DNA of 64,000 nt, from assembly GCA_949710005.1 (NCBI GenBank), contig OX453279.1:8049878-8113877 (forward strand), in the 5' to 3' direction. Positions within the stretch are counted from its first letter, which is position 1, and each line of letters begins with the position of its first letter. The stretch is from Ricordea florida. Its lineage: Eukaryota; Cnidaria; Anthozoa; Corallimorpharia; Ricordeidae. This document shows, piece after piece, positions 22,501 to 28,500 of the stretch. Under the pieces are notes generated by a model. The model saw only the letters and a program-made list of their open reading frames with translations, was not told where the DNA came from and did no database searches. The position numbers and the translations under genes are program-made.

Positions 22501-25500
22501 ACTGTCCGTCTCCATGGTCAAGTGAAAAAAAGTAGTGTAGTCCATGAGCTGAATCTCAAAAGAGGCCTTAAAATTGAGTTTCGTAGCACCCCCCATGGGA
22601 CATAGTGAAATTTGAATCAAATTAAAGCTTATGACCTATATTTTTAGAATTAACTTGTTTTCATATCGGTAACGTGTGCTATAATGAGATATAGGGCTGC
22701 ATCCATGGGGGTGGTGAGGGGAGAATTTGCTTACTATAGTTTTGGTGAGAATAAAAACGGTCCACACCTCTAACAAACATCAACCAAATTGATGTAAATT
22801 TGCAATATCTAATGTTTGTATCATAAGCTACGCAAATGTGTAACCGAACCTGTGGATTTGGTTTCCATGGCAACAGTTATTAGCCAAATACTGCTTGATT
22901 ATAAAAGTATGTGATTTTTCGAATACAAAGTGAAATTTTGTAGTTTAACTTAATGTTTGATTTCTCAGAATTGCCCCCAAAAGCATTCTAAATTTATTCA
23001 AGATATCCAGAAGATGCATTAAGGTCTAGTCTTAAAAATGTTTCTGTAATATCCATATTTATCTTAACATTTTTCTTTATCTAAGGCTGTTTTCATTTTT
23101 CTTTCTTTTTCATAATATTTGATTGAGTACAAGACTTTTCCGTTAGAAAGAACTTCTTCAATAAAATATTTTAATGAAATGCGTTTTTCTCAAGATCTTT
23201 TGGTTTTTATCCCACAATGCATAGTGCAATTGCTAATCCCATAATGCTTTACATTTAGCAGAGTCAGCCATCTTGGATTACAAAACCCAACATATGGTTA
23301 ACAAAACGAAGTTTTCAGCTTTTTTGGGAAGCAAATGTTTAACACAAACAATGCAAAAGAATTACTTTAAGTTGAAAAAAGGTTTTTATTGCAAAGATGT
23401 CTTAAAGAAAGCAGTTTTACAAGCTTTACTTCACTCGACGATCTGTAAGTACCAAATTGGCTACAACGAATTTGCTGCTTTAGCATTTGTTTTGAAAGGA
23501 ACTAATTAAGTTACGGTTGGTTAACGTTTTGCTTTTCAAAAAAATTCTTAGTTGAACAAACTTTAAACCGCAACATGAAGACCAAGGGTGGCATAGTAGG
23601 GTTTAGCCTTAAGAAGGGTGCTGTGCAGCGGTGGATGTTAACTGCGCATGCAAGAGCCAGCTTTGTCGATCGATGCAGAGAAATGGCTTCTTTGCATCCT
23701 CAGGAAGAGAGAAAGAATCACAAGGAGTCGGGCTCGATTCGCACGAAACAGGATGAAGAAGACGTGCAGAAGGTTATGGAGGTGATTAGTCAATGGAGGA
23801 ATCCATTTGAGACGTCAGAGGACCTTGTTAGTTTGAGTTCAGGCTCAATTGCAAGTAACACTTTAAAGGAAGACCTGCTTAAAGCAGAAGAGAAAGTAAA
23901 GTCGGCGTTTGTGTCATTTGTACAAGACCGGCTGACCAGCAGTGCAGTAGGGTTCTTCGAGACACTACCAAGGCTGAAGTTAGGGAAATTCGGAGAGGTC
24001 AAAAAGATGGTTAATCATGGGGGTAAGAGTTTTGTGCTCCGAGCAGATAGAAATCTTTTCGCCAGGCTCCTGGTCATTGGACAAAGTCGACAGATCGATC
24101 TACGAGATCTCCTCACTCACGAACTAGGTCCCGTGCCTTGGTCTCTGGCAACATACGATGGCGCACTAGCTAAGACAAACAAGTCCGCTCTAGCGAAGCT
24201 TCTGGAAGAAGATGTAGAGATCCTTCCAAATCTACCAAATGCCTCTGCTGTCATTGTAGATGCTATGGCACTACTGCAAACCCTACCTAAAGTACCAGAT
24301 CGTTTCATTGACCTAGCGGATCTTATCCTCAGTGCAATAATCAATCAAGGGGGTGAAGCGAGGAGGATAGACTTTGTAGCAGACCAGTGCCCAAGCATCT
24401 CAATAAAAAACATTGAGCGTGAGAAGCGAGGGAGATCAGGACAGTTAGCTTTCCAGAGTAGAAGTTCACAGCAGTTTTGTCCCCGACAGTGGAAAAAGTT
24501 CCTTGCAAATGGCTTAAACAAGACCAACTTCATGGAATTCCTTGCAGATGTGTGGGGGACGGACCAGCGTTTTGCTGAGAAGATTGGAGTAAAAACTCTG
24601 TTCATCACTCATGGTGAGAGTTGCTCCAAGATAAGAGTTGACGCTCAAGGTAGTATTTCTTCTAGTACGGTGCTTGAACTTTGCAGCAATCAAGAAGAGG
24701 CAGATACCAGAATGTTTCTGCATGCCTTGCATGCCTCTGATACGTCCCATCAACAAATATTAATCAAATCATCGGACACAGATGTAGAAGTATTGGCATG
24801 TTACTTTCAAGAGCACATAAGTGCTGATATCTTTCTTCTCAGTGGCACAAGAAGTCGAGCTCGTGTCATCAATGTCACCCAGGTCTGCGAGCAGCTAGGT
24901 GTCGAGGTGTGTCGAGCATTACCAGGGCTACATGCACTAACTGGGTGCGACACAGTAAGCTCTTTTGCTGGAAAAGGGAAAAAGGCAGCTCTTGATATCG
25001 TAAAAGCTGACAAAGACAGCAGAGAAAGTATCCATAGAATCGGCGAGTGTGTCCCACCAATGAGAGAAGATCTTAAAAAAATAGAAAAGTTCGTTTGTTC
25101 ACTTTACAATGATGTTAACTGTTGTAAGATTAACGAAACGAGATATAAGTTATTCTGCAAAAACCAGAATCTTCAGTCCTACCAGCTTCCTCCCACCCAT
25201 GCTGCCTTACAGAAGCATCTACAACGTGCAAACTACCAGGCTTATATTTGGAAACATGCACTGGATGCAAGAATTGTAAACCAACTACCAGATGGTCAAG
25301 GATGGCGAGTTAGAGGAGAGTCGCTGGCACCGGAATCTGTAATGGAGCTAGTAAGCTGTGGTTGCAAAGGAAAGTGTGAAACCCGTAGGTGTTCTTGCGT
25401 CAAGAACGAACTCCATTGCACAGATGCATGTTCTTGTGAGGAAGAATGTGTCAACTGTGAAATCAGTCAATTCAGTGATAATGAGGACGACTCTGCCAGT

Positions 25501-28500
25501 AGTGAGGAAGAGGATTGGCTGTAAAAAGCACCTCGTGATATACTATATTGTGGTTGTGACAAATTACTTGAAAAGTTTCTAGAAATATAGTATCAATTCA
25601 TATTAGATACGAAGATCGATACAAGCGTTGCTATGGAAACTTATTAATTAGTAGTAGGCATTGCTTTACGTTTGATTTTTCAACAAAGTAAAATGCATTA
25701 CTTAATAAAGAGATGATTGTTTCTTTTTTCTTCCTTTTTTGTTTTTGCTTGGCTTTTACTGGTTGTGCCACTTATCCTGGCTTTCCTGCAATACCTATTT
25801 TCCAGACATTGGTGCATCTTTGAGACATCCTGAATAGAATTAAGGTATCTTAGAGCAAACTAAAAAATGCCTCTAGGGGCGTTTTTTAGTTAAAAACATA
25901 AAATTTCATTTTGTATTCGAAGAACCAGATATTTTAATTAACAAGCAGTATTTAACAGGTGCCTGTTGCCATGGAAACCAAAACCACAGATTCGATAACA
26001 CATTTGGGTAGCGTATGATGCAACGACAATATCTTGCAAATTTTAACAAGTTTGGTTGATGTTTGTTATAGGTATGGGCCATTTTTCTTTTCACGGCGAC
26101 TATAGTAAGAAAATTCCCCCCATCCCACCCCCGATGGAAATAGCCCAATATCTCATTATAGCACATGTTACAGGTTTGAAAACAAGAAGATTCTAAAAAT
26201 ATTGGTAATAAACTTTAATTTCACGCCTAATTTACAATGTCCCGTAGGGGGTGCTACGAGGCATAACTTTTAGGCCCCTTGGCTCATGGACTAGTGCCAT
26301 TTAAGATAAAGTAGTCAGTTATGCATGTGCTTTATGTTTAACTTAATAACATAACCCTTTAAGTCCCAGTAGTGCCAGCATCCAATTTCTCATTACAGTA
26401 TTTACTGTTCATTAACCAGTCAGGTTGTGAGAATTTCAATAACAAAAATGATCACCAAAAAGAGTTACATTGATATTTAAACAAATTTTCCTCACCAGCA
26501 ACATAAATATATGACAACAGTTAGGAGAAAATGAATATGGATACTGGGGGCTTGAAGGGTTAAGGTGACAAATTGAGTGTCTTCATACCTCATTGCAGTC
26601 ATCCACAAGTATAAAGAAAAGGTCAAATCTTGACATTATAGGTGCAGACATGTTGAGGTTATGCTGTAAAGGACAGATCAAAGACGAAACTTATACAAGG
26701 ATTACTGACAAAAGAAATTATGTATTAGTATATATAATAGGACTCCATACTGTCCAATTAAGAAAATATTGGATGAGAAAATTCAGAGGAACACCAAAAT
26801 TGGACAAGGCCGCAGGCCGAGTCCAATTTGGTGTTCCAAGGAATTTTTGAATCCAACATTTTCTCAATTGGACAAGCATGGAGTCCTGTTATTTGTTAAT
26901 TATATAGCTACCTCTAAATCCAATATTGGCAACTGTCCAATTTTTCTTAAATTGGATAGGTGTCCAATTTAAGAAAAATTGGACAGTTGCCAATATTGGA
27001 TTAAGAGGTAGTTGTATAATTATACCAGCTAAAAAAATGAATGAAAGAAAGAGCTCTAGATTTCTTTCAGCTGAGGCCAACAAAAGTAAATAGGCAAATT
27101 TTGGTGGTTGTACACTGATCCAAAAGGAACCTCAGGCCTGTATGACAATAACTATCATTATAATAACCATAACTATTATTATTACTATTATTATTAATAA
27201 TATAAATAGCAATATTATTATTATTATTATTATTAATGCAGTTAAATGCAATTTAACTAAGAACAACTGTCCTTATTCAGTTTTGTGGTGGTCAGCGGTC
27301 TAAATGCAAACACAAGCATGTGCGACTCCACTGAGTTGCACATGCTTTGCAGCTCGGTATCAACCTAGTGGCAATGACTTAGTGAAGCATCATCATCTGT
27401 GAGCAGTTTCTGGTTACCCTTCCCTCCCATCCTTCTTTTTTTTCCACTGACAGGTGCCTGGTCTACCATGGTGTTGGGGCCAATGGCTGGTTGCGAGGAT
27501 TTGCCAGCCATGAGGGCATTTCTCCATCTAGTGGCTGGCTGCTTATAGTGGAGACCCCTGGATACCCAGACACCCTACCTCCAATCTATGTTAATACTGT
27601 GAACCACTACATCAGTGCAGAGTGGATCTGTGCAGGTGCAGTTTGGATCCAGGCAAGTTTTACACCTGTTTACACTGAAGCTGTTTTCATGTTTTCATGT
27701 GTTTATGGTATACCAGTCCACAGTCGCTAGAAGTCAGCAGTTAGGTGGTTCCGTTATTTTCCTTGTGCACCAAATGCACATAACTTTAAAAACAGCCTCC
27801 TGGTACGAAAACAGAACCGAAATGGCCTGTTCAAACTGTGCTGTTACAGCTTGATACCATTATGGAACCAAAGCTGTGTCTGCACCTGGAGCAGGTACTA
27901 AATTTGCAGGGTTGGCCGGTACAAAACCGTTCCGATAGCAACCACAATGTGAACGGAAGGCCTATCCATACAAATTTTATACCAGATCCAAAGTGGATCT
28001 GTCAGAGGGTGAAAGTAGCCTGAGAATCCTTTCTCCACAACATACCTTAAGAGATTTTGTTCTATCATATCTCCCACCGATGGGGTTTGCAGCAGCCAAA
28101 ATAGATGTCCTGGCATTCAGAGATGCCTGCAATTAGATAACGAATACACTCAGTTAAAACAACGTGTCACATTGCAAGGAGCAGGGCTCCACATTAACTT
28201 TTTTAGTCAGGCACAAGATGGCGACTAATCCAAAAATTTTGGTCGCCAGATCTTAACTTTCAGTTGCCATTTTTTTCACAGATGTTTTTGTTATTGCACC
28301 CACACTACTTTAAAAAGAAGCTGCTGAATCAAACATGGCACTGGATTGTGAAACATGGCGATTGAAGAGTCATGGGTTTGTTTTGTTATATCTGTTTGCA
28401 TAAATCATGCATTTTATCCAAAAGGACGATTAATTTACCTTTGAGATTTAATAAAAGGTTGGAGAAAAAAAAGTGAAGGTGAGTCGCCCGCTCTAAAAAT

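Follow-up and report, generated by a model that had tools for sequence, protein, structure and literature searches.

An internally deleted terminal-inverted-repeat transposon of Ricordea florida and its FEN/XPG-like nuclease frame

Can a DNA transposon move by means of a structure-specific nuclease, with no transposase of its own? The question is raised by a locus of Ricordea florida, where the 64,000-nucleotide stretch analysed here (the window; GenBank assembly GCA_949710005.1, contig OX453279.1, forward-strand positions 8,049,878 to 8,113,877) contains a 3,756-bp element with terminal inverted repeats (TIRs; window 22538-26293, plus strand), whose sole open reading frame (ORF) above 100 amino acids, a frame of 649 residues (23575-25524, plus strand), resembles the FEN/XPG nucleases. 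Judged from alignments with its relatives in the same genome, the window copy is an internally deleted form, and its long protein is only the nuclease-like C-terminal part of a bigger protein. We assign a probability of about 0.74 to the reading that the element is a non-autonomous, internally deleted TIR transposon of the cut-and-paste type that makes 3-bp target duplications and whose longer relatives carry a transposase-like half.

A deletion common to four short copies

The outline of the element, as given in the original prediction, is directly visible in the window. The left tip TAGTCCATGAGC (22538-22549, plus strand) is the exact inverse of the 12-bp right tip GCTCATGGACTA (26282-26293, minus strand), and the element is flanked on both sides by GTG, the left and right copies of a 3-bp target duplication (22535-22537 and 26294-26296). 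The long inverted arms (22560-22953 and 25886-26280) are imperfect, pairing in two segments at 77% across 169 nt and 78% across 247 nt.

Two longer siblings, L010 (5,809 bp) and L013 (5,668 bp), have both ends as in the window element and carry an extra 2,024 and 2,021 bp, respectively, between window positions 23551 and 23552, splitting element bases 1-1014 from bases 1015-3756, which are adjacent in the window copy. At this junction about 2.02 kb is absent from the window copy and from three further short copies, L015, L019 and L023, which align with it end to end at 98.1-99.1%. The junction is the same in all four short copies, with no bases shared on either side of it, and each copy has its own 3-bp duplication, which argues that one deletion came first and at least four insertions after it. 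The short copies differ from one another by 0.8-1.4%, pointing to recent movement, and from L010 and L013 by 2.05-2.47%. The absent piece matches a domain upstream of the nuclease in another subfamily (hereafter the N-domain), over query residues 186-516 in L010 and 266-516 in L013, and in the sister GT-tip subfamily (tips TAGTGTATGAGC) two 5.2-kb two-tipped elements encode N-domain and nuclease in one frame, private stops aside. The proposal that a structure-specific nuclease moves this lineage without a transposase is not supported, given the further conserved domain of the long siblings, and the absence of a DDE pattern, once offered as a clue, is uninformative, the region having been deleted from the window copy. 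That the only large protein is FEN-like remains true of the window copy but not of the family, where the upstream domain is present in L010, L013 and other subfamilies.

Further copies sharing the tips, which the original prediction proposed to look for, exist in the genome (537.8 Mb in 48 contigs searched). The exact 12-mer TAGTCCATGAGC occurs at 63 sites, as against 7 for a reversed control pattern, so the window tips are not a product of chance; by our own count, 38 of these sites form 19 facing pairs. Eighteen pairs were read (17 and the window element), a 10.9-kb pair on contig C2 being omitted for its length. All 18 of these CC-tip elements have identical 3-bp flanks and none (0/18) identical 4-bp flanks, the control agreement between mispaired flanks being 26/306. 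The duplicated triplets are A/T-rich and follow no fixed word (TTA 4, ATT 3, ATA 3, AAA 2 and six others once each; n = 18). Duplications of 3 bp likewise bound 6/6 GT-tip elements with both flanks, among which L040 sits in a simple repeat. Empty sites were found as paralogous counterparts of two sibling insertions, and each has the triplet once: that of L021 emerges from comparison against L030, and that of L012 is a repeat inside the window itself (20036-20333, minus strand, 85.9% over 298 bp), where it provides a useful internal control. The public viral-contig and genome-contig collections searched contain no relatives of the element. One 7.4-kb sibling, L014, contains a 1,071-residue open frame (L014:1587-4799, plus strand) that by eye looks like a Copia-type retrotransposon polyprotein.

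The 649-residue frame, the C-terminal half of the longer protein, owes its ATG to a private ACG-to-ATG change. The same codon is ACG in 5/5 same-ended siblings, and the ORF start is therefore an accident of the window copy; the frame is open from 23506 and, upstream of the ATG, runs on to the junction. This openness past the junction, together with the freedom of the window copy and L019 from indels and stops, could be taken to mean that the short form was kept since it makes the nuclease, aiding transposition in trans or in cis, as could the sequence just left of the junction, which resembles a splice acceptor (TTCTTAG) and has a donor-like GATCT-GTAAG upstream of it. We nevertheless find it quite unlikely that the short copies are nuclease-only satellites. 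Besides the private start, 27 nt (nine codons, EIDWTDLAP region) of a segment that is conserved in other subfamilies and kept in L010 and L013 are gone in frame from all four short copies (site 25326|25327, its place inferred from the alignment). Private non-synonymous to synonymous changes (window 6:2, L019 3:2, L015 6:6, L023 8:4 plus one stop) are small in number, look neutral and give no sign of constraint, and the frame is damaged in L015 by a 1-nt deletion and in L023 by three indels. The upstream open frame, moreover, is not kept among copies (69, 29, 24, 28, 29 and 29 residues), a variation that also led us to reject the splicing of a coding exon from further upstream onto the junction, and nuclease-less forms, described below, have multiplied as well. 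We attribute the unbroken frame to the youth of the copy rather than to demonstrable selection; of the earlier reading of intact coding as recent activity, the recency stands on the divergence, but the open frame attests no more than youth.

The two halves of the family protein

Across relatives, the N-domain has invariant acidic positions that include the D of DNxD, the EE of EETLxG, the D of VxxDQAxY, the D and E of GLxDLxxES, and the E of EALxRLxW. We presume that it is an RNase H-type transposase. Pfam DUF6589 (PF20231) matches the N-domain of L066 with a score of 40.5 bits (E 1.8e-10; cut-off 27) and, weakly and below cut-off, L032, L038 and L031; the other 12 of the 16 pieces scanned, some of which have no N-domain, give no match. 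A GxFH motif considered as the site of a catalytic aspartate was rejected, as the position varies among D, S, T, V and G. Further upstream, some relatives have two finger-like motifs of the form C..C..H..C. The genome contains at least 104 DUF6589 rows among the matches listed. The main DUF6589 group, with 614-residue frames, was compared through its near-identical members L121 (C2:26464800-26469600) and L122 (C8:15007000-15011800), for which blastp gave no direct similarity to the rows of the N-domain (best E 0.041); they belong to a multi-copy group with many near-identical rows, lying in repeats of more than 4.1 kb. We found no mention of DUF6589 in the open-licence PMC papers searched.

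The nuclease-like core spans residues 216-495 (24220-25059, plus strand) and is followed by a Cys-rich tail (residues 595-628; 25357-25458, plus strand), for which the relatives L011 and L066 give weak Pfam TCR/CXC matches below cut-off. Our alignment of the core, A5, comprises 12 pieces; two rows of the initial alignment A1 are absent from A2 and A5, L009 since its ORF is by eye a reverse-transcriptase-like insertion and L033 since it is a near copy of L032. The acidic positions are kept almost throughout: D229 in 11/12 rows, D270 in 11/11, E374/E375/D377 in 11/11, D401 in 11/11 and D459 in 10/11. L031 departs from the pattern with G at D459 and N at D403, L046 has Y in place of D403, and one alignment fragment is a further exception; G466-K-G468-K469 likewise persists in all, or almost all, of the rows. 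In their order, and roughly in their spacing, these residues agree with the active site of FEN1/XPG and the helix-hairpin region behind it, with VDxM, VxD, EEAD, DTD, GCD and GKGK in the same succession. Unlike FEN1/XPG proteins of the PIN-like group, the family nuclease follows a transposase-like domain within one protein and precedes a Cys-rich tail.

A profile of 27 archaeal FEN1 proteins drawn from 53 loci (L102 cut at a stop) scored 33.6 against our nuclease profile, a value that 0/200 column shuffles reached (maximum 26.6) and that lies far above those of the reversed columns (21.2) and the N-domain (17.8). The signal resides in the C-terminal block, which alone gives P 0.00017, a probability of 49% and 0/200 shuffles, and in which the DxD falls in register, as does the G-x-D/GKGK helix-hairpin region. 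Thus the FEN/XPG reading of the original prediction is supported in motif order and in the C-terminal half of the core, and FEN kinship of the C-terminal half of the protein is likely, though not proven, from the profile comparison.

Several results weigh against the picture of a transposase-like domain joined to a FEN-like nuclease. The N-terminal block of the nuclease core, unrecognised by the profile on its own, scores no better against FEN1 than shuffles, 106/200 of which equal it, and AlphaFold run without an alignment returned models with a mean predicted local distance difference test score (pLDDT) of 35 for the 649-residue protein and 39 for 305 residues of the core. For the other half, only one of the 16 scanned pieces exceeds the DUF6589 cut-off, and N-domain profiles have no credible match in the PDB (none for A3; for A4 only a hit to an RRP6 chain, E 0.67, taken as chance). 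Finally, the window's own subfamily yielded no copy that is both full-length and intact, L010 and L013 being broken. The results for the core, with an hhalign probability of 12% for the whole FEN1 comparison and with searches of the window protein that gave only DUF7826 at E 0.08 in Pfam, nothing in the PDB and nothing in NCBIfam for 6/6 pieces, would also suit a different fold, with acidic motifs that are like those of FEN only by accident. Such a fold would leave the C-block match, its motifs in register, the FEN1-like order and spacing and the lower control scores to coincidence, and we regard it as quite unlikely, no more probable than a satellite role for the short form. Two PDB hits were likewise set aside as chance, a lone coiled-coil chain with profile A2 (E 0.11) and a coatomer chain with the profile of the L066 C-terminal half (E 0.99).

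Loss of either half and a proposed mode of movement

Each half has been lost from some elements. By tblastn (E 1e-5), the N-domain is kept in 3/18 paired elements, L010, L013 and L020, and in 7/18 what remains of the nuclease starts at about residue 290/304, without D229 and D270. Conversely, we found 11 places of the nuclease-less type, none of which coincides with a nuclease row among the 68 of 314 nuclease candidates scored. The two that we read, L062 and L063, belong to elements of about 4.05 kb that are 99.4% alike, have tips TAGTCCATGGG[C/T]C, keep the fingers and the N-domain, and have no residues 1-524 of the nuclease half; both have matching 3-bp flanks (ACA by script, TTA by eye). 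Because nuclease-only and nuclease-less forms have both multiplied, neither half is apparently needed in cis, the pattern to be expected if deletion derivatives are mobilised in trans.

These forms bear on whether the FEN/XPG-like nuclease could itself be the recombinase of a lineage that moves without a DDE-type enzyme. The FEN-site metal-ligand positions kept across subfamilies, and the 15/18 paired elements in which tblastn detects no N-domain, are compatible with that notion. Yet a large conserved N-domain persists in the long relatives, forms that lack the nuclease core have also moved, as the likeness of L062 and L063 and their duplications indicate, and the 7/18 elements without D229 and D270 are paired and flanked like the rest; we judge it very improbable.

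Instead, we propose that the full family protein consists, in order, of Cys/His finger-like motifs, the DUF6589-like N-domain, the FEN/XPG-like nuclease and the Cys-rich tail. One ancestor lost the approximately 2.02 kb that cover the N-domain, and the shortened form then spread to at least four copies, presumably moved in trans by the protein of longer relatives through the tips that they have in common. In this scheme, that protein would bind the tips and cut and join with a stagger of 3 bp. The N-domain would adopt an RNase H fold and carry out synaptic cleavage and strand transfer, so producing the 3-bp duplications, and the FEN-like domain may trim or resolve flaps or gaps at the DNA ends as the element excises or integrates. 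The coexistence of nuclease-only and presumed transposase-only forms with related tips would also fit a split, two-part transposon, each part needing the other in trans and the FEN-like nuclease doing an essential DNA cut in place of host repair; we think this unlikely, if slightly less so than the satellite and chance-fold explanations above.

Affinities and genomic setting

AcademX is a lineage of the Academ superfamily (Repbase; Kojima). The AcademX nuclease is of the XPG type. PIF/Harbinger elements duplicate a 3-bp TWA target and CACTA/EnSpm elements have CACTA-type termini; the triplets found here (TTA 4/18, TAA 0/18) do not fit the former, nor the termini TAGTCCATGAGC the latter. AcademX elements make 3- or 4-bp duplications and AcademH elements 9 or 10, linked to a nuclease and a helicase, respectively (PMC10045372), and Academ is counted among the DDD/E superfamilies (PMC9587614). 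The suggestion of an Academ relative is thus plausible: 3-bp duplications and an encoded nuclease, recognised here at the profile level, fit the account of AcademX in PMC10045372. The window copy differs in having no transposase-like domain, and AcademX membership of the family is probable, a likeness by description. With 3-bp duplications, and with Pfam scans of 17 pieces that show no helicase family, the family is not AcademH. The open-licence PMC papers searched included none that names Academ and XPG together and one that names AcademX. Kolobok lineages (KolobokE, KolobokP and KolobokD) also pair a transposase with an accessory nuclease (PMC9587614), but the nucleases named there have other folds (lambda-exonuclease-like, His-Me finger and DnaQ-like), and the C/DxxH signature is not evident by eye in our family.

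The window element lies in an intron of a minus-strand gene that from its motifs looks like MCM6, between exons with YAIARRIVD near 21771 and SRFDLFF near 26633; also ascribed to this gene are the motif DEFDKM (28717) and one of Walker type (31052). Elsewhere in the window, a gene with a bZIP_Maf domain occupies 6608-7327 on the minus strand (Pfam PF03131, E 4.6e-16). Facing tandem 13-bp units at 56439-56878, ATGGACTACCCAA (56439-56478) and ATTTGGGTAGTTC (56839-56878), resemble the ends of a separate small inverted-repeat element of about 440 bp. At 12622-12918 and 29866-30071 stand arrays in which related units of 113-114 bp are repeated in tandem (AACCCTTTCACTCCCAAGAGTG... and AACCCTTTAAGCCCCAATAGTG...), as is common in stony corals.

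The locus is best read as a non-autonomous, internally deleted AcademX-like transposon of a known kind, and the tempting reading of a transposon with a FEN nuclease alone is corrected to that of a deletion derivative. For the question whether transposons of this type need their accessory nuclease in order to move, to which we found no answer in the open-licence PMC literature, the presence in one genome of forms that have lost either half offers a concrete test.

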